A stretch of 11,564 bases of DNA from Acetobacteraceae bacterium (lineage in GTDB: Bacteria; Pseudomonadota; Alphaproteobacteria; Acetobacterales; Acetobacteraceae): NCBI GenBank assembly GCA_947476855.1, contig CANJSR010000124.1:1-11564 (forward strand), written 5' to 3'. This document shows, piece by piece, positions 1 through 11,564 of the stretch; positions within the stretch are counted from its first letter, which is position 1; every line of letters starts with the position of its first letter. The notes below the pieces were generated by a model, which was not told the DNA's origin, did no database searches, and worked only from the letters and a program-made list of their open reading frames with translations. The position numbers and the translations under genes were made by a program.

Positions 1-99
1 CACGTCGGCCCGCGCCTGCAGGCGGGACCAGTCCGCGCTGCCTTGCGCGACCCCCTGCCAGTCGTCCAGCACCGCCACCTTGGTCATGTTGCCGCTCAT
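1..99 (-). CDS. D-2-hydroxyacid dehydrogenase family protein, N-terminal fragment
   Basis: Only the first 33 codons are in the window; the gene continues off the left edge. Read on the minus strand from the ATG at 99-97, it begins MSGNMTKVAVLDDWQGVAQ and continues with SADWSRLQARADV. The KVAVLDDWQGVA...ADWSRL pattern is the usual opening of D-isomer-specific 2-hydroxyacid dehydrogenases of the phosphoglycerate-dehydrogenase-like group, which are cytoplasmic NAD(P)-dependent enzymes with a split catalytic domain and a Rossmann domain. The catalytic Arg/Glu/His and the nucleotide-binding loop lie outside the window, so the substrate cannot be assigned. A GGGGAG Shine-Dalgarno sits about 7 bases before the ATG and supports this start over the in-frame ATG at codon 5. 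The gene diverges from the aspartic protease lipoprotein across 152 bp. Confidence 0.75.
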   Translation of the reverse strand, partial: MSGNMTKVAVLDDWQGVAQGSADWSRLQARADV

Positions 100-251
100 G
101 GGCGTTCTCCCCTGTTACCGATATCCAGGGTGGCGCGGAGGGCGAAACCCCGCAAGACCAGGGGGGCGCGGCCGCCGGCGTCCCCCCCCCGCCTTTCCTG
201 GGCCCTGTTCCGCGTGCAGAAAGGACCGGAACCGGGAGAGAGAGCCGCCCC

Positions 252-1172
252 ATGACGTTCGCCTGGCTGCGCGCGCCGATCGTTGTCCTGTGCCTGCTGC
301 TGGCGGCCTGCGCCCAGCCGGTCAACGAGTGCGACCTGGTGCGGATCACCCACTTGCCGCTGAGCGTGAACCACCGGCTGCTGACGGTGCCGGTGGGGAT
401 CAACGGCCAAGCGGTCTCGATGCTGGTCGATACCGGTGCCGAACGCACGATGATCACCGAGGAGACGGCCGAACGTCTCAAGGTCACGCGCGACCCGCGC
501 TTCATGACCCGCTCGGGCGGCGTTGGCGGGGTGACCCAGTCGGCCGATGCAAGGGTGGAAAGCTTCGTCCTGGGCGGGGTTGGCTTCCCGATCGATCGTG
601 TCTCGGTCAATCGCCTGGGTCCCGGCGTCCCGTTCGAGGGCATCCTCGGCGCCGATATCCTGCTGGCCTTCGACCTTGATATCGATGTCCCCGGCGGCGC
701 CCTCAGCCTCTATCGCATCCGCCGCTGCGCCGTGGCCGACCCGCCCTGGCCCGAGCGCGCCGTCCCCATCGCCGGCGTCACGGCCAGGCGGGACCGGATG
801 ATGGTGCCGATCGAGGTCAATGGCGTCGAGGGCATCGCCCTGCTCGACACTGGCGCGCAGACCAGCACCCTGGGCGCGTCCTTCGCCCGCCGGCTGGGGC
901 TGACCGACCAGGTGCTGGCCGCGGGCCCGGCCCTGACGATCCGCGGCGTCGGGCCGGGGACCTTGCAGGCCCGCATCCAGCGGTTCCGGACCGTGCGCCT
1001 CGGCCCCGTGGTCGGCACCCATGTCCTGCTGCCGGTGCTGCCGATGGATATCGGCTTTGGCGACGCGCTGATCGGGCAGGACTTCCTGCACGGACGGCGG
1101 ATGTGGGTGTCATTTCCGACGCGGCGGCTGTTCATCTCCCAGCATGGGCACGAGATGCTGCTCCGGCCCTGA
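252..1172 (+). CDS. Lipoprotein with two retropepsin-like aspartic protease domains
   Basis: This 306-residue protein begins with a lipoprotein signal peptide: R7, a hydrophobic core at 9-18, and the lipobox L17-A18-A19-C20. It is therefore probably an exported, lipid-anchored envelope protein. Two copies of a retroviral-type aspartic protease fold follow. The first has MLVDTGAERTMI with catalytic D60-T61-G62 and a closing GILGAD at 130-135. The second has ALLDTGAQTSTLG with D199-T200-G201 and a closing ALIGQDF near the C-terminus. Retropepsins are normally homodimers in which each chain gives one Asp, so the two DTG motifs here could form one active site within a single chain. Both motifs look intact. 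The substrate is unknown. The ATG at 252 follows a GGGAGAGAGAG purine run at a workable distance. The stop codon directly abuts the stop of the convergent thioesterase. Confidence 0.82.
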   Translation: MTFAWLRAPIVVLCLLLAACAQPVNECDLVRITHLPLSVNHRLLTVPVGINGQAVSMLVDTGAERTMITEETAERLKVTRDPRFMTRSGGVGGVTQSADARVESFVLGGVGFPIDRVSVNRLGPGVPFEGILGADILLAFDLDIDVPGGALSLYRIRRCAVADPPWPERAVPIAGVTARRDRMMVPIEVNGVEGIALLDTGAQTSTLGASFARRLGLTDQVLAAGPALTIRGVGPGTLQARIQRFRTVRLGPVVGTHVLLPVLPMDIGFGDALIGQDFLHGRRMWVSFPTRRLFISQHGHEMLLRP

Positions 1173-1616
1173 TCAGGCCGCCGGCACGCTGATCTTCGTC
1201 AGCAGGGCGCGGGAGTCATCGGGGATCGGCACCGGGCGCTGCGACCCACGCTCGACGAAGACATGCACGAAATGGCCCTCGGCCGTAGCGGCATCCTCGT
1301 CATTGCGGAACACCGCGAGTTCATAGCGGACCGAGCTGCGGCCGATATTCGCGACCCGGATGCCGACCGTGATCAGGTCGGGGAAGGCGACCGAGCTGTG
1401 ATAGCGGCAGGACACCTCGGCCACCACGCAATGGGTCGGGCCATCGAGCAGGCCGACGACCTTCTCCTTCATCTCGTAATAGGTCACGGCGGTGTCGAAA
1501 TAGGAGAAGTAGTTGACGTTGTTCACATGCTGGAACACGTCGTTGTCCATCCACCGCGTGGTGATCTGGTGGAACCAGCGATAGTCGGACCGGCGGCCTG
1601 GCGGGGGACGGCTCAT
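1173..1616 (-). CDS. Acyl-CoA thioesterase, 4HBT hotdog family (YbgC-like)
   Basis: This 147-residue cytoplasmic protein has the size and signature of a 4-hydroxybenzoyl-CoA thioesterase/YbgC-type hotdog enzyme, which hydrolyses acyl-CoA thioesters. The N-terminal signature TRWMDNDVFQHVNNVNYFSY covers residues 20-39. Aligned by eye with YbgC, D26 occupies the position of the catalytic aspartate, and H30, N33 and Y36 complete the conserved D-x(3)-H-x(2)-N-x(2)-Y pattern. The rest (CRYHSSVAFPDLITVGIRV, SSVRYELAVF) fits the hotdog beta sheet, with a C-terminal HVFVERGSQRPVPIP segment. An AAGGAT Shine-Dalgarno 6 bases before the ATG supports the start. The chain-length specificity cannot be read from sequence, and a housekeeping or lipid role is only inferred. 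It diverges from ycjX across 363 bp and converges with the protease gene with no intergenic base. Confidence 0.85.
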   Translation of the reverse strand: MSRPPPGRRSDYRWFHQITTRWMDNDVFQHVNNVNYFSYFDTAVTYYEMKEKVVGLLDGPTHCVVAEVSCRYHSSVAFPDLITVGIRVANIGRSSVRYELAVFRNDEDAATAEGHFVHVFVERGSQRPVPIPDDSRALLTKISVPAA

Positions 1617-1979
1617 GTTCGCATCCTTGCGGGTTGGGCGGCGCCGTTGAAGCGGATCGGGGCGGTGATGTCCATTGGTTGGGGGAGGCGGCCTGGAGCC
1701 CCCGCGGCCCTCCCCCTGTCATTCCCGCCGCCAAAGCACGTCATCCCCGCGCTTGTCGCGGGGACCAATCGCGGCAGCGTGCTGGGGATGATCCCCGCGA
1801 CAAGCGCGGGGATGACGGGAGGGAGGGGCCGGGGGATGACCCCCGCAGGAGTGAGCGGCCACAACGACACCCCGACGTCCACCCATCCCCTTTGTTCGCC
1901 ACGCGGACGCATTATCTGAACACCTCCGCCCCGCCCGCCATCCCGGCCAGCGACCCGGCGGACGCATGGGCGGGAGAGG
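1617..1979. other. Divergent intergenic region without a credible gene
   Basis: This spacer separates the start of the thioesterase gene (minus) from the start of ycjX (plus) and must hold both promoters. I could not pick convincing -35/-10 boxes. Its middle is occupied by a palindromic repeat cluster (about 1718-1850, see the separate entry). Open frames crossing it on both strands are low-complexity and simply translate the repeat; none has domain signal. The segment near the ycjX start carries a purine-rich GGGAGAGG. Confidence 0.6.
1739..1817. repeat. REPIN-like double palindrome
   Basis: A perfect 26 bp inverted repeat has arms at 1739-1764 and 1792-1817 separated by 27 bp. Each arm is itself a small hairpin: CCCCGCG-CTTGT-CGCGGGG inside a GTCAT...A context. 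Two inverted REP-like hairpins that can also pair as one long hairpin is the architecture of REPIN elements. Decayed copies of the same motif flank it: GTCATTCCCGCC at 1718-1729 and a GGGGGATGACCCCCGC stretch at 1831-1845. That suggests several rounds of insertion and decay at the same spot. The GTCATCCCCGCG core is the sort of dispersed repeat seen many times in GC-rich alphaproteobacterial genomes, but copy number cannot be judged from this window. No RAYT transposase gene is present here. Confidence 0.75.
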
Positions 1980-3467
1980 ATGGCGCTAGGCTTCAACGAC
2001 ATGGGGACCGGTCTGTTTGACCGCGCCGCCCGCTCTCTCAATGAGGACCGGATCGGCCTCGCCGTCACCGGTCTCAGCCGGTCCGGCAAGACCGTCTTTG
2101 TCACCTCCCTCATCCAGAATCTCCTGGCCCTTGGCCATGGCGTGAACACGCTGCCGGCCTTCGCCGATGTGCTGCGGACCGATGGCGTTTCCCGCCTGCT
2201 CGACGTCGCCATCCTGCCGGCCGGCGCGTCCGCCCTGCCGCATTTCGACCAGGCGGCGAAGTTGGCCCGCCTGTCCGCCGCCCAACCCGCCTGGCCGGAC
2301 CGGACCGAGGATCTGGCGACCATCTCCCTGATGCTGACCATCGCCCGCCCCTCCGGCCTCGGCCGCCGGATCGGGCCGCGCCGGGTCCGTCTCGATATCC
2401 TGGACTACCCAGGCGAGTGGCTGCTCGACCTGCCGCTGCTGCACCAGGATTTTGCCGCGTGGTCGGTCCAGACGCTCGATCTGCTGCGCCAGCCGCCGCG
2501 GCGGGCGATCTTTCAGCCGTTCCTGGATTTCCTCGACCGCCAGGGTGCGACCGTCACCCCCGATGAGGCGCTGGCCCGCCAGGGGCACCAGCTTTACCGG
2601 GCGGCGCTGGATCAATGCCGGCGGGAACGCGGCCTGCGCTTCCTCCAGCCCGGCCGCTTCCTGTGTCCCGGCCCGCGCGGCGACGTGCCCTATATGTGGT
2701 TCTATCCCGCCGATCCCGCCCAGCGCGGCGGCATGACCGACCTGCTGGCCGAACGGTTCGAGGCGTACAAGCTGGCCGTGCGGACCGAGTTCTTCGAACC
2801 GCATTTCGCCTCCTTCTCCCGCCAGGTGATGCTCGTCGACGTGCTGGGCGCCCTGGTGGCAGGCCGAGCGGCGTTTGAGGATACGGTGAGGGCGATTCAG
2901 GCGATTGCGGGGGCGTTGCGGTATGGCTCGGGTGGCGGCGTCATCCCCACGACGGCGTCCTGGCTGCTGCGTGGCATGGGTCATGTCCTGCCGCCGGTCC
3001 TGGGGCGCGCCTCCGACGCGGCGGCCCGCCATCTCAGCGACCCCAGCATCGACCGGATCGCCTTCGTCGCCACCAAGGCCGACCATGTCCCCGCGCTCAA
3101 GCGCGAGAACCTGCGCCATCTGCTGCGCGCGTTGGTCGATCCGATCGCGGAACACCCCGCCGGCGCCGGGGCCGCGATCGGCCACCACGTCGCTGCCTCC
3201 CTGCTGTCGACCGAGGACGGCAGCGCCAGGATGGACGGCCGAACCATCCCGGTCGTGCAGGGGATCGTGATGGGAGAGGACAAGGTCCGCCCCTATTTCG
3301 TGGGCGAGGTCCCCTCCGGCCCGCCGCCCGCCGATTTCTGGTCGGAGTCCTTCTTTGAGCTGCCGGTCTTCCGCCCGCCGCCAGTCGACCCCTCGGGCCG
3401 GACCGGACTGCCGCATCTCGGCCTGGACCGGGTCCTGGCCGACCTGATCGGAGACCTGGTGCAATGA
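1980..3467 (+). CDS. ycjX: YcjX-family (DUF463) P-loop NTPase
   Basis: This 495-residue protein matches the YcjX/DUF463 family of P-loop NTPases, which in gammaproteobacteria accompany the phage-shock-protein regulon and pair with YcjF. The Walker A motif GLSRSGKT is at residues 31-38 after the typical RIGLAVTGLSRSGKTVF context. The family's switch-like LDILDYPGEWLLDLPLL lies around 138-154, with D142 and G145-E146. A G4-like TKAD is at 365-368 in IAFVATKADHVP. FRPPPVDPSGRTGLPHLGLD near the C-terminus also fits the family. No membrane segment or signal is visible, so it is probably cytosolic or membrane-peripheral. The ATG at 1980 has a GGGAG only 3 bases upstream; the in-frame ATG at 2001 (codon 8) is an alternative, and the family core begins after both. 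The stop overlaps the ycjF start (ATGA), which indicates translational coupling. Confidence 0.9.
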   Translation: MALGFNDMGTGLFDRAARSLNEDRIGLAVTGLSRSGKTVFVTSLIQNLLALGHGVNTLPAFADVLRTDGVSRLLDVAILPAGASALPHFDQAAKLARLSAAQPAWPDRTEDLATISLMLTIARPSGLGRRIGPRRVRLDILDYPGEWLLDLPLLHQDFAAWSVQTLDLLRQPPRRAIFQPFLDFLDRQGATVTPDEALARQGHQLYRAALDQCRRERGLRFLQPGRFLCPGPRGDVPYMWFYPADPAQRGGMTDLLAERFEAYKLAVRTEFFEPHFASFSRQVMLVDVLGALVAGRAAFEDTVRAIQAIAGALRYGSGGGVIPTTASWLLRGMGHVLPPVLGRASDAAARHLSDPSIDRIAFVATKADHVPALKRENLRHLLRALVDPIAEHPAGAGAAIGHHVAASLLSTEDGSARMDGRTIPVVQGIVMGEDKVRPYFVGEVPSGPPPADFWSESFFELPVFRPPPVDPSGRTGLPHLGLDRVLADLIGDLVQ

Positions 3468-4408
3468 CCAACCGTCCCCGCTTCCTGGATGAACCGGCCG
3501 CGGTGGAACCGATCCGTCCGGTGGTGGCCGAGGCGCCGATCCAGGCCCGCCCGATGCTGCTGGATCCCACGCCCGACGCGCCGTCCAGCCTGCAACCGGC
3601 CTGGGCGCCGCCGCCGATTGCCACCGCGCCTGGTCGCGCCGGGAACGGGTTCTGGATGGCGACCGGCGCGCTGGTGGCGCTTGGGACCTGGGCGGGTGTC
3701 TCGGCGGCGTCCTATGTCGTCGATGCCTTCACCCAACCTACTCCCCTGAGCATCGCGGCGGCGTTGGGGATCAGCGGCGGGCTGGCCATCGCCGGCTATG
3801 GCATGGGCGCGGAGTGGCGGGATTACCGCCGCCTGCGGACCGTGGACCTGACCCGAGCCACACTCTCCGACCCCGATTCCCCCGTGCCCCCGGTACGCCA
3901 CGCCGCGCTGGACTGGCTGGCGCGGGTCGAGGCCCATGTGCCGGACGCCCTGGCGGTGCGGCAGGCGCTGCGCGACGCGACCTCGGTGGCCGAGATCGGC
4001 GCGATCCTGCGCGGCCGGGTGGATGCGCCGCTGCGGGAGGCCGTGCGCCGCATCGGCCAGGACGCGGCGGTGGAGGGCGCGGCCCTGGTCGCCATCAGCC
4101 CGCATGCGAGCTGGGACGGCATGATCGCCGCCTTCAAGGGCCTGCTCGTGATCCGCAAGGTCGCTCGGCTTTATGGCATGCGGCCGGGCCCGGCGGTGAC
4201 GGCCGCGCTGGTCCGCAAGGTCGCCTGGACCGCGGCGGGGACGGCGGGGATCGACCTGCTGTCGCAGACCGTGGCGGACCAGGCGCTGACATCCTTGCCA
4301 GTCGCCCGCCATCTGCTGGCCGCCCTGCCGGGCAGCGGGGTGACGGCGCTGCGGTTGTATCGCCTGGCCTCGATCACCGCCGAGGCGTGCAGCCCGGTGA
4401 AAAGGTAG
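3464..4408 (+). CDS. ycjF: YcjF-family (TIGR01620/DUF697) inner-membrane protein
   Basis: This 314-residue protein is the usual partner of YcjX. It has a Pro/Ala-rich, probably disordered cytoplasmic N-terminus (residues 1-60), then two hydrophobic segments at about 63-86 and 96-115 that should form a transmembrane hairpin. A long helical C-terminal DUF697-type region follows. In that region ISPHASWDGM (211-220), VIRKVARLYGMRPG (229-242) and HLLAALPGSGVTALRLYRLA (283-302) match the conserved blocks of the family. It is expected in the inner membrane; its molecular role is not established. The start codon overlaps the ycjX stop by 4 bases, so the two are almost certainly co-translated. No pspA/B/C genes are next to the pair, unlike in Escherichia coli. 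It is slightly shorter than the roughly 350-residue enterobacterial proteins. Confidence 0.85.
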   Translation: MTNRPRFLDEPAAVEPIRPVVAEAPIQARPMLLDPTPDAPSSLQPAWAPPPIATAPGRAGNGFWMATGALVALGTWAGVSAASYVVDAFTQPTPLSIAAALGISGGLAIAGYGMGAEWRDYRRLRTVDLTRATLSDPDSPVPPVRHAALDWLARVEAHVPDALAVRQALRDATSVAEIGAILRGRVDAPLREAVRRIGQDAAVEGAALVAISPHASWDGMIAAFKGLLVIRKVARLYGMRPGPAVTAALVRKVAWTAAGTAGIDLLSQTVADQALTSLPVARHLLAALPGSGVTALRLYRLASITAEACSPVKR

Positions 4409-4431
4409 GGCGCGTATAGCCTCCACGCCCT
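4407..4431 (+). terminator. Possible weak hairpin at the end of ycjXF
   Basis: AGGGCG at 4407-4412 can pair with CGCCCT at 4426-4431 around a 13-base loop, starting inside the ycjF stop codon. It is followed by a pyrimidine-rich CCTCTTGTCTT rather than a clean T run. Position suits termination of the ycjXF transcript, but the stem is short and there is no proper U tract. Confidence 0.3.
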
Positions 4432-4498
4432 CCTCTTGTCTTAGTGGAAGGGGCGGCAGACCGGGTCAGGAGCCGACAAATTCGATTCCATGCCCCCG

Positions 4499-4655
4499 CT
4501 CCCCTTGAGGGAGGGGGTTGGGGGGAGGGGTCATCGCGGCACCAACTTTCCATGATCCCCGATCAGCACCCTTTATCGCGGCACCAGTTTTCCATAGCCC
4601 CCGATCAACAACCTTCGTGGATCGACCCCTCCCCCGGCCCCTCCCTCAAGGGGAG
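4499..4655. repeat. Composite intergenic repeat: inverted arms enclosing a two-unit tandem repeat
   Basis: The outer arms, 4499-4532 (34 bp) and 4624-4655 (32 bp), are inverted copies starting CTCCCCTTGAGGGAGGGG and ending GGAGGGGTC. They differ only in a short middle stretch (GTTGGGG versus CCGGG). Between them lie two head-to-tail units with a 42 bp period, 4533-4574 and 4575-4616. Both start ATCGCGGCACCA, continue with (A/G)(C/T)TTTCCAT and contain CCCCGATCA, with a few substitutions. The whole ~157 bp looks like a small mobile or dispersed element of the MITE/palindromic-unit kind. No target-site duplication was evident. It occupies the convergent gap after ycjF, and its right part reads as the last codons of epmB. 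Confidence 0.75.
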
Positions 4656-5687
4656 GGGAGAAGCTATCCCCCGACGGACCCCGCCGGGGTCCCGCACACC
4701 CCCATCGACCTCCAGGTAATCCGGCCCGATCGGCACCTTCCCGTGCCCGCCCGGGATATCCAGCACATAGGTCGGCCAAGCCAGCCCCGTCACCCGCCCA
4801 CGCAGAGCCGCCAGCAGCCGCCGGCCTTCCTCGATCGGCACATGGAACCGCGCGGTCCCCGGCGCCGCGTCCAACTGGTGCAGGTAATAGGGCTTCACCC
4901 GCGCCGCGATCATCGCGCGGAACAGCGCTTCCAGCGCCTCGGCCGAGTCATTCACCCCACGCAGCAGCACCGACTGTCCCAGCACCGGCACGGCCCGGGC
5001 CTGAATCCGCCGCAGCGCCGCCCGTGCCTCCGCCGAGAACTCCCGCGCATGGTTGGCATGCACGACCACCCAGACCGAGCGGTCCGTCTCCAGCGCGGCG
5101 ACCAGGGCATCATTCACCCGCTCCGGGTCCGCCACGGGAACGCGCGTGTGGATACGGATCGTCTCGATGTGCTGGATCGCCGACAGCGCCGCCACGATCG
5201 CCCCCAGCCGCCGAGGAGACAGCATCAGCGGATCGCCCCCGGTCAGGATCACCTCCCGGATCGCCGGATGACCAGCGAACCAGCGATAGGCGGCGTCCAA
5301 CTCCGCCTCGGTCAGCAGCCCGCCATCCGGTCCCACATGCTCCCGCCGGAAGCAGAACCGGCAATAGACGGGGCAGATCAGCAAAGGCTTCAGCAGTGCC
5401 CGGTCGGCATAGCGATGCACCACGCCCTTGACCGGAGACAGCGCATCGTCCGCGATCGGGTCGACGCTCTCATGCGGGGCCGTGACCAGTTCCGCGACAT
5501 CGGGGATGAACTGGAGCCCGATCGGGTCATCCGCCCGCTCGATCAGCGCCCGCACCGCCGGTGTCAGGGCGATCGCATACCGCGCCGCCACCGCATGCGT
5601 ATCCGCCAGGGCGTCCGGCGCGATCAGCCCCGCGCGCAGCAGGGCCTCCGCGTCGCGCAGCACCCGGTCAGGCAAGGGCGCATTCAC
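4605..5687 (-). CDS. epmB: EF-P (R)-beta-lysylation protein EpmB, lysine 2,3-aminomutase
   Basis: This 360-residue radical-SAM, PLP-dependent enzyme isomerises L-alpha-lysine to (R)-beta-lysine, the donor that EpmA attaches to elongation factor P. The [4Fe-4S] cysteines are C105-x3-C109-x2-C112 (CPVYCRFCF), followed by the SAM-binding TGGDPL at 149-154. The PLP lysine is K317 in PGGHGKVP. D273 (HQLDAAPG) and D310 (YVLDIPGG) have the same spacing to each other (37) and to the lysine (7) as the two substrate-binding aspartates of clostridial lysine 2,3-aminomutase (D293, D330, K337). The length and absence of a long N-terminal domain favour EpmB over catabolic aminomutases. A GTG at 5687-5685 is the most sensible start; there is only a G-rich stretch as ribosome site and no in-frame ATG nearby. 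Residues 341-360 (SPLPLREGPGEGS...) are encoded by the adjacent repeat and replace the normal tail. It diverges from the epmA fusion gene. Confidence 0.88.
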   Translation of the reverse strand: MNAPLPDRVLRDAEALLRAGLIAPDALADTHAVAARYAIALTPAVRALIERADDPIGLQFIPDVAELVTAPHESVDPIADDALSPVKGVVHRYADRALLKPLLICPVYCRFCFRREHVGPDGGLLTEAELDAAYRWFAGHPAIREVILTGGDPLMLSPRRLGAIVAALSAIQHIETIRIHTRVPVADPERVNDALVAALETDRSVWVVVHANHAREFSAEARAALRRIQARAVPVLGQSVLLRGVNDSAEALEALFRAMIAARVKPYYLHQLDAAPGTARFHVPIEEGRRLLAALRGRVTGLAWPTYVLDIPGGHGKVPIGPDYLEVDGGVRDPGGVRRGIASPLPLREGPGEGSIHEGC

Positions 5688-5759
5688 GCCCCCGGGCCCG
5701 CCAGGCGATGGCCGGCGCGCTGGTTCTGGCGAACCGTTCCTGCGATATGTCGGCCTGCC
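5688..5759. promoter_or_regulatory. Divergent epmB/epmA spacer
   Basis: These 72 bases lie between the GTG of epmB and the ATG of the sulfotransferase-EpmA gene and must hold the signals for both, unless transcription begins inside the genes. The left part is very GC-rich (CCCCCGGGCCCG). The right part, TTCTGG...GATATG, is the only relatively AT-rich stretch, and I could not assign promoter boxes with confidence. Neither gene has a strong Shine-Dalgarno, so weak or leaderless translation is possible. Confidence 0.4.
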
Positions 5760-7823
5760 ATGGTCACTCCGCACTTCATCCTGCATATCGGCGCGCACAA
5801 GACAGGCACAACCTATCTGCAACGCGTCTTCGCCGCCCTTGCCCCGGCGCTGCGGCAACAGGGCGTGTTGTATCCCGATATCTGGCGTCCCTCGGCCAAT
5901 CAACCCGGGCATCACCGTTTGCCGGTCCGCCTCCGGACCGCTTCCCATGCCGAACTGGCCCGCGATGTCGCCGAGATCACCGATGCCGGCTGCCCGGTCG
6001 TCCTGCTGTCGGCCGAGGACCTGGGCCGCCTGCCCCCCGACCGGATCGCCGTCCTCCGTTCCGCCCTCGGCGGCGCCCCCCTCACCATCATCCTCCATGC
6101 TCGGCGTTGGTCCGATGCCCTGCCGTCGATGTGGCAGGAAATCATCCGCCATGGGCAGGATACCGAGCTGCCTGCCTATCTGGCACCGCTGCTCGCCAAC
6201 CCCGCCGGCGCGCTGACGACCAACTGGGGCCATGCGCTCCGGGCCTGGTCGGGAGTGTTCGGGCGACAGAACATCCGTCTGGTCTCCTTCAACCATGTCA
6301 TCGACGCCGGCCTCGATCCAGCGGAGCATTTTCTGCGGACATTCCTGCCGGACCGCATGCCCGATCTGTCCGCCGCCACCGCCCTGTTCGGGCAGCCGGC
6401 GCATCCCTCGATGCCGGTCTGGCGGATTGAAATCATCCGCGGCCTCAATGCCCTGCACGCCGAACAGGGGGGGGCGCGCGGTACTGCGCCGAGGCTCTGG
6501 TTCCTGCGCGCGTTGCCGACCCTGGACCAGGACAGGCTGCGGCAAACGATCGAGCCGCGGCTGGCCGAACTGACCCTGGCCGACAGCGATCCCGGGCTGG
6601 CCTCCCTGCACGACGCGCTGCTGAACACCTGGGAAGACCGGATGGTGCCCCCTGTCCAGCCCGGCCGGCTGTTCACGCCGGGGACCCGCGCGCTGCCCTA
6701 CCTCCCGAACGGGGCTGTGGCCGAACCGGCGGTGCGATCGGTGCTGAGCGATCTCTACGACGCGTTCCGGGGCGCCGCGGCCAATCCGCGCCCGATCACA
6801 CCCCGACCTTCCGGAATGCCGACCCCCCTTTGGCACCCGGAAAGCCTCGCTGGCCGCATGCCCTTCCTGCGGCGGCGGGGTGAACTGACGCGCGCCACCC
6901 GCGCCTTCCTCGAAGCCCGCGGCTACCTCGAAGTCGAAACCCCCTACGCCGTGCCCGCGCCGGGGGAGGAGGTGCATCTGCGCCCGTTCGCCACCAGCCG
7001 CACCCATCCCGACGGCACGACCGAACCGCTCTGGCTGCACACCAGCCCCGAATTCGCCATGAAGAAGCTGCTCGTCGGCGGCGCCGGCCCGATCTTCCAG
7101 TTCGCCCGCGTCTGGCGGAACGAGGAAGGCAGCGCCCTGCACGCGCCCGAGTTCACCATGCTGGAATGGTACCGCCCCCACGCCGACATGGACGCCCTGA
7201 TCGCGGAAACGACCGACCTGCTGCGCGCCGTCCTGCCGCCGGTCGTGAGTTGCCGCGGCGTCACCACCGACCTCTCCCGGATCGAACGGCTGACGGTGGC
7301 CGAGGCCTTCACCCGCCATGCTGGCGCCGATGTCCTCGGCACCGCCGGCGACGCGGCGGCCCTCGCGGCCTCGGCCGGGGTCGGCCTCCGCGAGAACGAG
7401 ACGTGGGAGGATCTGTTCTTCCGCCTCCTGCTCGACCGCGTCGAACCCGCGATCGGCCGCACCCATCCGACCTTCCTGACCCATTGGCCCGCCGACCAGG
7501 CCGCCCTGGCGCGCCGCGATCCCGACGATCCCCGCGTCGCGCTGCGGTTCGAGTTGTTCGTCTGCGGCATCGAACTCGCCAACGCCTTCGTGGAACTGAC
7601 CGACGCCGCCGAACAGCGTGTCCGGTTCGAGCAGGATCGCGCCCGCCGCCACGCCTTGTATGGCCCCGACTGGCCGATGGATGAGGCGTTCCTGGCGGCC
7701 CTCGCCCATGGCATGCCCCCGTCGTCGGGAATCGCGCTGGGTTTCGACCGGTTGGCGATGCTGGCCACCGGCGCCGACCGGATCGGTCAGGTTCTGTGGC
7801 TTCCGCCCCCCGACCTGGCGTAG
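5760..7823 (+). CDS. epmA: Sulfotransferase-like domain fused to EpmA (EF-P lysine ligase)
   Basis: One open frame of 687 codons joins two unrelated domains. Residues 1 to about 340 resemble bacterial PAPS-dependent sulfotransferases: the 5'-phosphosulfate loop HIGAHKTGTTYLQ at 9-21, SAEDLGRL at 84-91, and a 3'-phosphate-binding region HARRWSDALPSMW at 113-125 with S118 and S123. Residues 353-687 form a full-length EpmA/GenX/PoxA, the class II LysRS paralogue lacking an anticodon-binding domain that transfers (R)-beta-lysine to EF-P. It shows motif 2 (FQFARVWRNEE at 446-456, then APEFTMLEWYRPH), GIELANAFVELTD at 603-615, and motif 3 (GIALGFDRLAMLATG at 657-671). No stop lies between the domains. 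M353 (ATG at 6816) could start a separate EpmA but lacks a Shine-Dalgarno. The ATG at 5760 is the first good start after epmB. EpmA identity is sure; sulfotransferase activity is inferred, and a sequencing frameshift joining two genes cannot be excluded. Confidence 0.85.
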   Translation: MVTPHFILHIGAHKTGTTYLQRVFAALAPALRQQGVLYPDIWRPSANQPGHHRLPVRLRTASHAELARDVAEITDAGCPVVLLSAEDLGRLPPDRIAVLRSALGGAPLTIILHARRWSDALPSMWQEIIRHGQDTELPAYLAPLLANPAGALTTNWGHALRAWSGVFGRQNIRLVSFNHVIDAGLDPAEHFLRTFLPDRMPDLSAATALFGQPAHPSMPVWRIEIIRGLNALHAEQGGARGTAPRLWFLRALPTLDQDRLRQTIEPRLAELTLADSDPGLASLHDALLNTWEDRMVPPVQPGRLFTPGTRALPYLPNGAVAEPAVRSVLSDLYDAFRGAAANPRPITPRPSGMPTPLWHPESLAGRMPFLRRRGELTRATRAFLEARGYLEVETPYAVPAPGEEVHLRPFATSRTHPDGTTEPLWLHTSPEFAMKKLLVGGAGPIFQFARVWRNEEGSALHAPEFTMLEWYRPHADMDALIAETTDLLRAVLPPVVSCRGVTTDLSRIERLTVAEAFTRHAGADVLGTAGDAAALAASAGVGLRENETWEDLFFRLLLDRVEPAIGRTHPTFLTHWPADQAALARRDPDDPRVALRFELFVCGIELANAFVELTDAAEQRVRFEQDRARRHALYGPDWPMDEAFLAALAHGMPPSSGIALGFDRLAMLATGADRIGQVLWLPPPDLA

Positions 7824-7857
7824 TCTTGCCGCACGACAGCCCAAGGATGCCCGACGG

Positions 7858-8214
7858 ATGCGCCGCCTTCTCCTTCTCCCCCTGCTCGCCCTGGCGCTTC
7901 CGATGCTCGCCGCCTGCACCCCGTTCGGCCAGGCGCGGGAGGCGTATCTGGGGCAGTTCGTCGGCCAGCCAGAGCTCGCTCTGATCAACGGCCTCGGCGT
8001 GCCCGATCGCGTCTACGAAACGGACGGGCTGAAATTCCTCGCCTTCGTCGAGAACCGCGTGGACATGCCGCCGCCGGTGTCATTCTACAGCCCGCCCTAC
8101 TGGGGCATCAGCTCCGGCTTCCCGATGCAGGTTGTGCAATGGCAGTGTGAGACGACGGTCGTGATCCGGAATGGCATCGTTCTCAACTTCTCGTTCCGCG
8201 GCAACGGCTGCTGA
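7858..8214 (+). CDS. Small BamE/SmpA-like lipoprotein, function unknown
   Basis: This 118-residue protein has a lipoprotein signal peptide (RR at 2-3, Leu-rich core, lipobox L17-A18-A19-C20), so it should be lipid-anchored in the envelope. The mature part starts with FVGQPELALINGLGVPDRVY, followed by DGLKFLAF. That is the 'G-x-P-E-x-x-L...LGxPxxxYExDGxKxL' pattern common to small alphaproteobacterial lipoproteins with a SmpA/OmlA (BamE)-like fold. A proline- and tyrosine-rich loop (PPPVSFYSPPYWG) is followed by C97ETTVVIRNG...NGC118, two cysteines that could form a disulfide in the periplasm. The exact function is unknown, and equating it with BamE itself would overreach. AAGGA lies 10 bases before the ATG. 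The gene begins 34 bp after the epmA stop on the same strand and is probably co-transcribed. Confidence 0.75.
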   Translation: MRRLLLLPLLALALPMLAACTPFGQAREAYLGQFVGQPELALINGLGVPDRVYETDGLKFLAFVENRVDMPPPVSFYSPPYWGISSGFPMQVVQWQCETTVVIRNGIVLNFSFRGNGC

Positions 8215-8239
8215 CAATTATCGCGTTCATCGTCCGCCC

Positions 8240-8253
8240 TTGATCCATGTCAA
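8240..8253. promoter_or_regulatory. FNR/FixK-type binding site upstream of the OmpW gene
   Basis: TTGAT-CCAT-GTCAA matches the Crp/FNR-family consensus TTGAT-N4-ATCAA at 9 of 10 defined positions and extends to a CCTTGA...TCAAGG palindrome (8238-8255). Its centre lies about 96 bp before the ompW ATG. In Escherichia coli ompW responds to oxygen limitation through FNR, so control by an FnrL/FixK-like activator here is reasonable. Candidate -10 sequences downstream (for example AACAAT at 8293-8298) are weak. The leader also contains short hairpins CGAAC/GTTCG (8291-8306) and GCGTC/GACGC (8319-8331), the second right before the ribosome-binding site. Confidence 0.6.
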
Positions 8254-8342
8254 GGTCGCCGTCCCGGATCCAACGCAGGATCGTCCCGGTCGAACAATCA
8301 AGTTCGGTTGTTGGGGATGCGTCGCGGACGCGAGGAACGACG

Positions 8343-9002
8343 ATGAAACAGATTTTGCTTGCAACCACCCTGCTGGCCGCGATGACGGCGGCGCTTCCCG
8401 CCACGGCCCAGACCGCGTCCGGCGACGCGCCGGTCGGCAAGGCGGCGGGGACGTTCATGATCCGTGGCCGCATCCTCGGGATCATTCCGCTCGATTCCAC
8501 GAGTTCGATCTCCGTCATCGGCGGGAAGGTCCACACCACCGCGTCGGCCACGCCGGAGGTCGACTTCTCCTATTTCCTGACCGACAACATCGCCCTGGAA
8601 CTGATCGCTGCCACGTCGAAGCATGACCTCTATGCGATGAACTCGGCGCTGGGCAGCAAGGCGAAGGTCGGCAGCACCTGGGTCCTGCCCCCGACCCTGC
8701 TGCTGCAGTACCACTTCCAGCCGAAGGAGCGGTTCAGCCCCTATGTCGGCGTCGGCCTGAACCTGTCGTTCTTCTACGGCACGTCCGCGGCGACCGGCAT
8801 CAACAACGTCTCGATGTCGAGCGGCGTGGGTGCCGCGATCCAGGCTGGATTCGACTACAACTTCTCGGGCAACTGGTTCGCCAACTTCGACGTGAAGCAG
8901 ATCTTCGTGAACACCACGGCCAGCGTGAACGGCGGCACGATCCAGGCGAAGACCTCCCTGAACCCGACCGTCGTCGGCGCGGGTATCGGCTACCGCTTCT
9001 GA
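8343..9002 (+). CDS. ompW: OmpW-family outer membrane protein
   Basis: This 219-residue outer-membrane beta-barrel protein has a Sec signal peptide (K2, hydrophobic 4-18, ALPATAQ with likely cleavage near residue 22 or 23). The mature chain shows the alternating beta-strand pattern and the OmpW family blocks: TPEVDFSYFLTDNIALELIA (70-89), WVLPPTLLLQYHF (113-125), SPYVGVGLNLSFFY (132-145), GVGAAIQAGFDYNF (161-174), and a terminal strand ending in GYRF with the C-terminal Phe recognised by the Bam machinery. OmpW forms an eight-stranded barrel with a hydrophobic channel thought to pass small hydrophobic molecules. The ATG at 8343 is chosen because GAGGAA lies 5 bases upstream and the signal peptide begins there; the longer frame from 8247 would put an arginine-rich stretch before it and would overlap the FNR-like box. 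Likely its own transcription unit. Confidence 0.9.
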   Translation: MKQILLATTLLAAMTAALPATAQTASGDAPVGKAAGTFMIRGRILGIIPLDSTSSISVIGGKVHTTASATPEVDFSYFLTDNIALELIAATSKHDLYAMNSALGSKAKVGSTWVLPPTLLLQYHFQPKERFSPYVGVGLNLSFFYGTSAATGINNVSMSSGVGAAIQAGFDYNFSGNWFANFDVKQIFVNTTASVNGGTIQAKTSLNPTVVGAGIGYRF

Positions 9003-9052
9003 TCCGTCCGCCTGGATGCCGCCGCCGACCCGGGATACACTCGGGGAAAATC

Positions 9053-9058
9053 AGGAGG
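9053..9058 (+). promoter_or_regulatory. Ribosome-binding site that fixes the leuB start
   Basis: A full AGGAGG lies 8 bases before the ATG at 9067. It selects this codon rather than the upstream in-frame ATG at 9016, whose extra 17 residues are not typical of the family. It is the strongest Shine-Dalgarno in the window. Confidence 0.8.
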
Positions 9059-9066
9059 CGGCATCC

Positions 9067-10182
9067 ATGAGCGGAAACATGCGGCGGGTCGCGGTCATGC
9101 CCGGCACCGGGATTGGTCCGGAAGTCACGGCCCAGGCCCTGCGGGTGGTGGAATGGTTCGCGACGAAGCGAGCCTTGCCTCTCGACATCCAGCACCCGCC
9201 CTCGGGCCCCGATGCCTGGCGCACGCTGGGCACGCCGATGCCCGACAAGACGCTGGAAACGCTGCGCAACGCCGACGCGATCCTGTTCGGCGCGGCCGGC
9301 GGTCCGGAAATCGACGCCATGCCGAAGGAAGCCCAGGCCGCCGGTGGCCTGCGCCGGCTGCGGCGCGAATTCGACATGTTCGCCAACCTGCGCCCCGTCC
9401 TCGCCCACCCGGCGCTGCTCGATGCCTCCACTCTCAAGCGGGAGGTGATCGAGGGCGTCGACATGATCATCCTGCGCGAACTCGCCGGCGGCATCTATTT
9501 CGGTGAGCCCCGCGGGATCGAAACCCTGCCCGACGGCCGTCGCCGCGGCTTCAATACCCAGGTTTATACCTCGGACGAGGTCGAGCGGATCGCCCGCGTC
9601 GGCTTTGAACTGGCCCGTGCCCGGCGTGGCAAGCTGACCAATGTCGACAAAGCCAACGTGATGGAAAGCAGCGTCATGTGGCGCGACGAGGTGGAGCGCC
9701 TCCACAAGGCCGAAGTCCCCGACGTGACGCTGAACCATCTGTATGTCGACAATGCCGCCATGCAGCTCGTGCGGGAACCACGGCAGTTCGACGTCATCGT
9801 CACCGACAACATCTTCGGCGATATCCTCTCCGACTGCGCCGCCATGATCACCGGTTCGCTGGGGATGCTCCCGTCCGCGTCATTGAGCGCGCGTGACAAG
9901 GATGGCCGCCGGCGCGCCTTGTTCGAGCCTGTGCATGGCAGCGCGCCCGACATCGCCGGGCAGGGGATCGCCAATCCGGTCGGCGCGATTCTGAGCGTGG
10001 CACTCGCTTTGCGCCATGCGATCGGGACCGAGGCCGACGCCGCCCTGCTAGAACAGGCCGTGGGCGCCGCGCTGACACGCGTCCGGACGCGGGATCTGCG
10101 TCAATCCGGCTGCGAAATTGTCTCGACAACCGGGATGGGAACGGCCGTCCTGGCCGAACTGGACCGGTTGCAGGGCGGCTAG
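9067..10182 (+). CDS. leuB: 3-isopropylmalate dehydrogenase
   Basis: This 371-residue cytoplasmic NAD-dependent enzyme oxidatively decarboxylates 3-isopropylmalate to 2-oxoisocaproate in leucine synthesis. The substrate-binding residues of the Thermus enzyme map clearly: R99 (GLRRLR), R109 (MFANLRPV), R137 and Y144 (LRELAGGIYFGEPRG), K195 (NVDKANVME), D228 (YVDNAAM), and the metal ligands D252 and D256 (DNIFGDILSD). FEPVHGSAPDIAGQGIANP follows as in all family members. The LRELAGGIYFGEPRG block favours IPMDH over isocitrate, tartrate or homoisocitrate dehydrogenases. The N-terminal loop reads MPGTGIGPE, whereas the family usually has GDGIGPE. leuC and leuD are not adjacent, so this is either a stand-alone leuB or a second paralogue with altered specificity. 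The strong AGGAGG fixes the start. Confidence 0.85.
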   Translation: MSGNMRRVAVMPGTGIGPEVTAQALRVVEWFATKRALPLDIQHPPSGPDAWRTLGTPMPDKTLETLRNADAILFGAAGGPEIDAMPKEAQAAGGLRRLRREFDMFANLRPVLAHPALLDASTLKREVIEGVDMIILRELAGGIYFGEPRGIETLPDGRRRGFNTQVYTSDEVERIARVGFELARARRGKLTNVDKANVMESSVMWRDEVERLHKAEVPDVTLNHLYVDNAAMQLVREPRQFDVIVTDNIFGDILSDCAAMITGSLGMLPSASLSARDKDGRRRALFEPVHGSAPDIAGQGIANPVGAILSVALALRHAIGTEADAALLEQAVGAALTRVRTRDLRQSGCEIVSTTGMGTAVLAELDRLQGG

Positions 10183-10233
10183 GTTGTCCGGGTTGAATTT
10201 TCGCGATTGCCCGCGCCGACCCGGCGGGCGATC

Positions 10234-10668
10234 ATGGGACATCATCGTCAAGGGCTATCCATCGTGCGCTATCTTCCGCCGTTTGACTTTCTGAAATCCA
10301 AGGCGACCGTCGATACCGTGGCCGGCCAGACGATGGTCCATATGTCGCACGACGAACTCGTCGAAATGCTCCGCTCGATCATCATCAACATGGACATCGA
10401 TGAGGCCTGGTACCTCCGCCGCTACCCGGACGTGGCGGAGGCGGTGCGCGCCGGCACCTTCAAGTCGGCGAAGGAGCATTTCGTCAATAACGGCTATTTC
10501 GAGGGACGGATGCCCTTCCAGATCGAGGTCGACGAGAAATATTACCTCGCGCGCTACCCCGAACTGGTCGAATCGATCCAGAAGGAAGTGATCGCCGACG
10601 GCCAGCAGCACTTCGATGAGAATGGCTACCTGGAAGGCCGCCGGCCCTTCGAGATCAAGCCGGGCTGA
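10234..10668 (+). CDS. Small protein with two tandem YPDV-type repeats
   Basis: This 144-residue protein of unknown function carries two copies of a ~44-residue repeat. Unit 1 (about 56-98) contains WYLRRYPDVAEAV, then HFVNNGYFEGRMPF. Unit 2 (about 100-142) contains YYLARYPELVESI, then HFDENGYLEGRRPF. The Y-x-x-x-YPD(V)...H(F/Y)...G(Y)xEGRxPF pattern is known to me from repeats attached to glycosyltransferases and large secreted proteins in Rhodospirillales and related bacteria, where it occurs as a helical module. Here it stands nearly alone, preceded by ~50 residues containing SHDELVEMLRSIIINMDI. No signal peptide or membrane segment is visible. The start is uncertain: TTG 10207, ATG 10234 or GTG 10264 are all in frame, none with a strong Shine-Dalgarno; the repeats are unaffected. 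It converges with a mannose-nucleotide gene, which hints at a surface-polysaccharide role. Confidence 0.7.
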   Translation: MGHHRQGLSIVRYLPPFDFLKSKATVDTVAGQTMVHMSHDELVEMLRSIIINMDIDEAWYLRRYPDVAEAVRAGTFKSAKEHFVNNGYFEGRMPFQIEVDEKYYLARYPELVESIQKEVIADGQQHFDENGYLEGRRPFEIKPG

Positions 10669-10673
10669 CCACC

Positions 10674-10691
10674 GACCGCCTGGGGGCGGTC
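10674..10691. terminator. Hairpin between convergent genes
   Basis: GACCGCC (10674-10680) and GGCGGTC (10685-10691) form a perfect 7 bp GC-rich stem with a TGGG loop. It sits 5 bases after the stop of the repeat protein and overlaps the stop codon of the minus-strand gene. The placement suits a bidirectional terminator, but no T tract follows on either strand, so it may only stabilise 3' ends. Confidence 0.45.
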
Positions 10692-11564
10692 AGGTCCGCC
10701 CGTAGGTGTCTTCGTAACGAACGATATCGTCTTCCCCGAGGTATCCGCCCGCCTGCACCTCGATCAGGGTCAGCGGGATCTTGCCCGGGTTTTCCAGCCT
10801 GTGGACGCAGCCCAGCGGCAGGTAGACGCTCTCGTTCTCCCGCAGGATCATGGTTTCCTTGTCGCGGGTGACGCGCGCGGTGCCGTTGACCACCACCCAG
10901 TGTTCGGCGCGGTGGAAATGGCTCTGCAGCGATAGCTGGCGGCCTGGCTGGACCACGATCCGTTTTACCTGGAAGCGGTCGCCCTGGATCAGGCTTTCAT
11001 AGAAGCCCCAGGGGCGGTAGGTGCGGTTGTGCTCGGTCGCTTCGGGCCGGCCATCGGCGCGCAACCGGTCGACGATCTTCTTCACATCCTGCGCCCGGTC
11101 GCGCGGCATCGCCAGCACGGCATCCCCGGTCACCACCAGCGCCACGTCCTTGAGGCCGATCACCGCCGACAACCGCCCCTCACTGCGGACATAGCAGCCG
11201 GACGCGTCCTCCAGCACGGCGTCGCCGAGCACGACGTTGCCGCGGTCATCCTTGGCGCCGAGTTCCCACAACGCGCCCCAGCTTCCCACATCCGACCAGC
11301 CGATCGCGGCCGGCACCACCGCGGCCTCCCGTGTCCGCTCCGCCACCGCGTAGTCGAGGCTGATCGAGGGGCAGGCGGTGAAGGCGTCCACATCCAGGCG
11401 GATGAAGTCGAGATCGACCTGCCGCTTCGCCACCGCCTGGCGCACCGCCGGCAGGACGTCGGGGGCATGCAGGTCCATCTCCCGCAGCAGCGTCTGCGCG
11501 GTGAAGACGAACATGCCGGAGTTCCACAGATGCCGCCCGTCCGTGATCAGGCGGGCGGCGGTGG
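10690..11564 (-). CDS. Mannose-1-phosphate guanylyltransferase/mannose-6-phosphate isomerase, 3' part
   Basis: The gene enters from the right edge; 290 residues are visible. They begin inside the nucleotidyltransferase domain (DGRHLWNSGMFVF, then GWSDVGSWGAL), so the ATG at 11514 is an internal methionine. The GDP-mannose pyrophosphorylase half converts mannose-1-phosphate and GTP to GDP-mannose. The C-terminal cupin is a type II phosphomannose isomerase domain: YRPWGFYESL, QLSLQSHFHRAEHWVVVNGTA and VYLPLGCVHRLENPGK, with probable metal ligands Q213, H215, E220 and H254 in visible numbering. This two-domain layout matches AlgA/XanB/ManC enzymes that supply GDP-mannose for exopolysaccharide, lipopolysaccharide or capsule. 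The end VRYEDTYGR is typical. The N-terminal GxGTRLWP-type signature lies outside the window, so completeness and the precise gene symbol cannot be judged. Confidence 0.9.
   Translation of the reverse strand, partial: TAARLITDGRHLWNSGMFVFTAQTLLREMDLHAPDVLPAVRQAVAKRQVDLDFIRLDVDAFTACPSISLDYAVAERTREAAVVPAAIGWSDVGSWGALWELGAKDDRGNVVLGDAVLEDASGCYVRSEGRLSAVIGLKDVALVVTGDAVLAMPRDRAQDVKKIVDRLRADGRPEATEHNRTYRPWGFYESLIQGDRFQVKRIVVQPGRQLSLQSHFHRAEHWVVVNGTARVTRDKETMILRENESVYLPLGCVHRLENPGKIPLTLIEVQAGGYLGEDDIVRYEDTYGRT

Follow-up and report, generated by a model that had tools for sequence, protein, structure and literature searches.

In an 11,564-nucleotide stretch from Acetobacteraceae bacterium (assembly GCA_947476855.1, contig CANJSR010000124.1, positions 1 to 11,564 of the forward strand; hereafter the window), one reading frame of 687 codons joins an N-terminal sulfotransferase-like domain (N domain) to a C-terminal EpmA. 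EpmA, also known as PoxA, GenX or YjeA, is the (R)-beta-lysine ligase of elongation factor P (EF-P). Judged from the sequences, the fusion is real and inherited, restricted to one clade and of single origin. It is probably the result of a gene insertion that tied two separate functions into joint expression.

The frame (5760-7823, plus strand) translates to 687 residues with zero internal stops and carries HIGAHKTGTTYLQ at residues 9-21, as the original prediction had described. The same frame is in fact open over 1101 codons, starting at 4518, and a 1127-codon frame crosses the gene on the opposite strand. Because long chance frames span the region on both strands, openness by itself is not evidence. 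The fused frame stands above chance since all 687 residues have homologous matches in other assemblies.

Five fused sequences were compared, those of the window, L001, L083, P0002 and P0003. L001, from the metagenome-assembled genome Acetobacteraceae bacterium UBA6159 (G001), matches over the full length with 96% identity (30 differences over 687 residues). P0002 (697 aa) is also full length, with 83% identity over 100% of the window protein, and P0003 (548 aa) shows 87% with the N-terminus missing. In a second fusion genome of the genus, G002, residues 1-616 are found with 90% identity up to the end of a contig and residues 626-686 at the start of another. Third codon positions account for 33 of the 57 differences between the window and L001 in residues 1-335, and for 37 of the 45 in residues 355-687. 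In a tree of 39 EpmA sequences, the five fused ones form a single clade (support 100/99). An assembly or frameshift artefact was rejected as next to impossible: the DNA is GC-rich with many long chance frames, but the five sequences come from several assemblies and agree, the others diverging from the window by 4-17% in protein sequence. Length differences at the joint are whole codons: L083 differs by 5 residues, and P0002 is longer by 10. Length alone was also rejected as evidence for a fusion. P0023 and P0119 have long N-terminal parts before EpmA with no Pfam family there, which are taken to be over-long gene calls.

Among 33 genomes of the genus, two carry the fusion (G001 and G002) and 28 have an EpmA whose match starts at about residue 335-355. 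Only the N domain was found in G006 and G031, and neither domain in G015. Two adjacent genes with a conserved stop between them, named beforehand as evidence against a fusion, were sought and not found; the N domain was detected upstream of 0 of the 28 unfused EpmA loci (tblastn, E 1e-6; 1.5 kb upstream in 27, 0.7 kb in one).

The C-terminal EpmA domain

Residues 370-680 reach 376.9 bits with TIGR00462 (NCBIfam; cut-off 286.9) and 300.8 with NF006828 (cut-off 264), in line with the complete EpmA that had been predicted. This part aligns with the EpmA-type structures 3a5z, 3a5y and 3g1z (E about 1e-71). The class II core with the catalytic motifs PEFTMLEWY and SG.ALG.DRL is present as in the E. 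coli-type structure. The fused EpmA reads SGIALGFDR, with Ala as in the structure; this Ala presumably has a role in the choice of beta-lysine. Identity as a lysyl-tRNA synthetase (LysRS) was rejected, with 210.7 bits for TIGR00499 (cut-off 427.6) and 216.1 for NF001756 (cut-off 468). The N-terminal anticodon-binding OB domain of LysRS gave no Pfam match in the fused protein. A sulfotransferase fold takes its place, which agrees with the earlier statement that a different domain occupies this position.

Class I LysRS was found in G002 and three sister genomes and is not full length in G001. In G001 and G002, PF00152 matched only the fusion and one higher-scoring frame, which is taken to be aspartyl-tRNA synthetase. 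As far as draft genomes can show, neither seems to have an EpmA other than the fusion. Their EF-P keeps the loop lysine (PGKGGAF), and no fusion-specific change was seen at the modified loop.

The N-terminal sulfotransferase-like domain

The N-terminal 345 residues match no Pfam or NCBIfam family at E 0.1 or at laxer limits. Fifteen relatives gave weak Pfam matches only, to PF13469 in two (best E 0.0088) and to PF00685 in one (E 0.024). A profile search of solved structures by sequence returned nothing convincing (best E 0.32 and 0.16, the latter for the sulfotransferase 3rnl). By fold, the matches are sulfotransferases, glycan-acting ones first, and the domain has the sulfotransferase fold.

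Conservation was read from an alignment of 100 sequences (A3), made of 92 of the 115 new proteins from the N-domain search, P0121-P0126, the window and L001. Lys14 is kept in 99/100, Thr15 and Gly16 in 100/100; they belong to the motif HIGAHKTGTTYLQ, which we take to be a 5'-phosphosulfate-binding-type loop (Lys/Thr). Glu86 (100/100) is a candidate catalytic base. Arg115 (100/100) and Ser123 (99/100) are presumably the 3'-phosphate-binding residues of the sulfotransferase family. K14, T15, G16, T17, T18, E86, R115 and S123 are all present in the fused sequences seen. In a first joint alignment (A4), stand-alone N proteins fell on wrong columns, and this alignment was kept out of the folding. 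A full-length model from 24 sequences (A5) had a mean predicted local distance difference test score (pLDDT) of 65.5 and a predicted template modelling score of 0.51, with pLDDT below 50 at residues 342-363. Its EpmA half was poor, so the model holds no information on domain contacts.

The ratio of nonsynonymous to synonymous substitution rates (dN/dS), calculated for the three sequences with DNA (window, L001, L083), is 0.26-0.28 in the N part and 0.06-0.08 in the EpmA part. Between G001 and G002, the same 177 residues give 0.19 for the fused copy and 0.36 for the stand-alone copy. These values point clearly to purifying selection on both halves, and the motifs are intact. APS kinase, which supplies 3'-phosphoadenosine 5'-phosphosulfate (PAPS), was found in 5/5 genomes tried, both fusion genomes among them.

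Stand-alone relatives of the N domain

The N-domain family comprises 561 proteins at E 0.001 or better, and the 120 of them that were listed are all without a Pfam domain. Paralogues apart from EpmA occur in 10 of the 33 genus genomes: G001, G002 (two copies), G003 (weak), G005 (broken), G006, G013, G022, G026 (a 57-residue piece), G031 and G033. Seven copies are whole and about as long as the fused domain (about 328-361 residues; 392 from an upstream start in L112). The copy in G005 (L118, contig C98) is a sulfotransferase-like gene in two frames and apparently broken. In a tree of 62 N domains, from which L118, P0003 (N-terminus missing) and P0180-P0249 were omitted, the four fused ones form one clade (100/100). 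Its sister group (100/98) consists of six stand-alone proteins, including copies in G001 and G002. Identity between these and the fused domain is only about 38-45%, so the split between fused and stand-alone N domains is old.

In the family, at least 58 of 397 genomes, sampled from a larger group, have an N-domain match at E 1e-10, and class-wide at least 4 of 385 at E 1e-20; both counts are lower bounds, as at most five candidates were scored per genome. P0128 (602 aa) is a distant relative in which a short-chain dehydrogenase domain follows (precomputed PF13561, PF00106); the N-domain family may fuse to other enzymes as well.

Of 34 N-domain loci checked for an adjoining EpmA, only the two fusion loci have one. 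A survey of 20 adjoining proteins found stand-alone copies beside dnaK/dnaJ (L112), a Sulfotransfer_2 protein and a Hint_2 protein (L113), chrB and a chromate transporter gene (L114), zinc alcohol dehydrogenases (L115, L116; L116 also with two glycosyltransferases further away), dsbD and cheR (L119) and a carboxymuconolactone-decarboxylase-type gene (L120). These neighbourhoods look unrelated to EF-P. At L114 (4520-7751, minus strand), the copy lies between the ChrB-type and chromate transporter genes and overlaps the start of the transporter gene by one base.

Proposed origin and alternative explanations

Divergent epmB and epmA genes with little space between them occur in many Acetobacteraceae, the gap being 26-271 bp between fixed codons at the unfused loci listed from outside the genus. 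Within the genus, 10 of the 28 unfused loci have this arrangement within 1.5 kb. Seven of these gaps measure 84-300 bp, and three (667, 699 and 1124 bp) hold other reading frames. At the fusion loci the gap is 1164-1179 bp between fixed codons and is filled by the N domain. As the simplest route we infer that a stand-alone gene was inserted and ended in frame at the epmA start. A sulfotransferase-like gene, from a family with several scattered copies in Acetobacteraceae, would have been copied into the short epmB|epmA gap in the ancestor of one clade. There it would have come into frame with epmA, and the original epmA start would then have decayed; the product would be one two-domain protein. 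The C-terminal half would keep the job of EpmA and beta-lysylate Lys34 of EF-P, supplied by the adjoining EpmB. The N-terminal half would use PAPS to sulfate another acceptor, probably a glycan or small molecule. The link between the two halves would lie in their joint transcription and translation, and they would have no substrate in common.

Other contents of such gaps were observed as well. In L087 and L088, the epmB strand of the gap holds another frame, about 200 codons long, which appears Uma2-type by eye. In L086, the epmA start codon is overlapped by a short frame whose sequence resembles, by eye, the beginning of an acetyltransferase. It seems that genes enter the epmB|epmA gap repeatedly.

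Several points weigh against the proposed explanation. At 18 of the 28 unfused loci in the genus, the flank covered shows no EpmB, which leaves some doubt about the ancestral neighbourhood in the closest relatives. All five fused sequences have an ATG at the Met367 position, nine residues into the conserved start region of EpmA, and a second, shorter product is therefore possible. The fused N domain has His215 where 97/100 relatives in A3 have Asn; because this residue is near-invariant, activity of the domain is not certain. Finally, five sequences keep the fusion without breakdown, and the coupling itself could be useful.

A single chain is likely made. The frame might instead yield two proteins, with the N domain translated from 5760 and EpmA separately from Met353 or Met367; the fusion would then exist in DNA only. 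Met353 of the window aligns exactly with the start of unfused EpmA (MPTPLWHPES against MPHPIWHPDS). Pairing upstream of Met367 is weak (-3.5, -3.5 and -1.7 kcal/mol), and L001 and L083 have TTG codons directly ahead of the conserved Trp. However, Met at the old start position is found in the window only and is replaced by Thr in L001, Ala in L083, Trp in P0002 and Arg in P0003, and the TTG codons are not shared by the window. A start at Met367 would remove the Trp-His-Pro region, whose Trp is present in 28/28 unfused genus sequences and missing from some other Acetobacteraceae. At the position of Met367, 7/28 unfused genus sequences also have Met, so it is not special to the fusion. We regard two separate products as unlikely.

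It is similarly improbable that the N domain has lost its enzymatic activity and now provides EpmA with a regulatory or docking module, which would sense PAPS or its desulfated form PAP, or bind EF-P or the ribosome. His215 and the higher dN/dS compared with the EpmA part would fit such a role. The retained motif residues argue for an enzyme, however, as does the dN/dS over 177 residues, which is lower in the fused than in the stand-alone copies of the same genomes.

The sulfotransferase domain could also modify EF-P or its beta-lysyl-lysine, with sulfate as a second modification or switch. This is very unlikely given that stand-alone copies lie beside unrelated genes, that EF-P of the two fusion genomes is without special change at the modified loop, and that 28/33 genus genomes have EpmA without the N domain. 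A somewhat broader role in the EF-P pathway, in which the domain sulfates EF-P, its beta-lysyl-lysine or a partner in translation, or couples the translation of polyproline to the sulfur status via PAPS, has a slightly smaller chance still. Among the functions guessed originally, the best fit is an unrelated activity that is coupled in expression, while no positive evidence was obtained for action on EF-P or the beta-lysyl group or for recruitment of EF-P.

Features of the window

Table 1. Features of the fused gene and its surroundings in the window
Feature	Position	Strand	Basis
Fused gene, 687 aa: sulfotransferase-like domain, linker and EpmA	5760..7823	+	Translation of the open reading frame, homology
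N-terminal sulfotransferase-fold domain, residues 1-340	5760..6779	+	Length equal to whole stand-alone relatives (328-361 aa, seven unbroken)
HIGAHKTGTTYLQ, residues 9-21, 5'-phosphosulfate-binding-type loop	5784..5822	+	Alignment A3; motif name assumed
Glu86, candidate catalytic base	6015..6017	+	Conserved in A3 (100/100); putative role
Arg115 to Ser123, 3'-phosphate-binding-type residues	6102..6128	+	Conserved in A3 (100/100 and 99/100); role assumed
Interdomain linker, residues 341-354	6780..6821	+	Variable sequence and length; low pLDDT
In-frame ATG, Met353, at the EpmA start position of unfused relatives	6816..6818	+	Alignment
EpmA domain, residues 355-687	6822..7820	+	Profile and structure-sequence matches
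Divergent EpmB/lysine-2,3-aminomutase-like gene	4605..5687	-	TIGR03822; GTG start at 5687 is our reading
Gap of 72 bp separating the divergent epmB-like gene from the fusion	5688..5759	.	Intergenic

The EpmB-like neighbour scores 507.9 bits with TIGR03822 (cut-off 396.25) and 240.5 with the EpmB model TIGR03821, under the cut-off of 369.3. No match to a sigma-70-like promoter was found in the 72-bp gap. Polyproline control of the joint was rejected, as the Pro-Pro near the joint in P0002 and P0003 is missing from the window linker and not conserved. Elsewhere in the window, at 1980-4408, a gene for a YcjX-like (DUF463) P-loop protein overlaps a DUF697 gene by four bases in an apparent operon, and a predicted lipoprotein-like protein (252-1172) has two retroviral-type aspartyl protease matches.

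Comparison with known systems and implications

The fused protein resembles EpmA in its whole catalytic domain over the TIGR00462 cut-off, its EpmB-like neighbour and the EF-P loop lysine in the fusion genomes. It differs in the 340-residue enzyme-like domain of another fold that precedes the core. In the available excerpt of one study, 358 collected EpmA proteins are described as single-domain (PMC6544042). A single-domain build is the usual trait of EpmA and not a requirement for activity. Compared with PAPS-dependent sulfotransferases (heparan-sulfate NDST1/3-OST, bacterial 3rnl, SULT, TPST), the N domain is too distant in sequence for naming by Pfam or NCBIfam and is fused to a class II synthetase-like domain.

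Other synthetase-related cores carry additional domains. Excerpts of PMC9437257 list PoxA/GenX and LysX, a LysRS fused with MprF. LysX likewise joins a LysRS-family catalytic core to another enzyme domain. Its parts, however, act in sequence on lysine, whereas the fusion has no evident shared substrate and its core is EpmA, not LysRS. Methionyl-tRNA synthetase of Mycoplasma penetrans has an N-terminal aminotransferase domain, as given in an excerpt of PMC7694997, and is similar in that an enzyme domain is added N-terminal to the synthetase core. There the additional domain supplies the amino acid substrate, and no such link is evident between sulfotransferase and EpmA. A second, independent type of EpmA fusion was observed in P0051, P0071 and P0112 (528-542 aa), where EpmA is followed by ankyrin repeats in one protein. 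These also combine the EpmA core with an extra domain, but at the C-terminal end, with non-enzymatic repeats and in other bacteria.

The words fusion or fused do not occur in the accessible part of PMC2821294. No report of a sulfotransferase-EpmA protein was found in the open-licence papers that were searched, in agreement with the original prediction; such absence is no proof that the protein is unpublished.

The fusion illustrates clearly how a stand-alone gene can take over the start of another gene, and it draws out a widespread, unnamed sulfotransferase-like family. As a stable natural fusion it indicates that EF-P modification enzymes, of which EpmA is usually a bare catalytic core, can form part of larger proteins. 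The fused protein is a testable object for the question whether sulfation bears on EF-P. If the N domain did act in the EF-P pathway, it would bring a third kind of chemistry to the EF-P tip or its vicinity.
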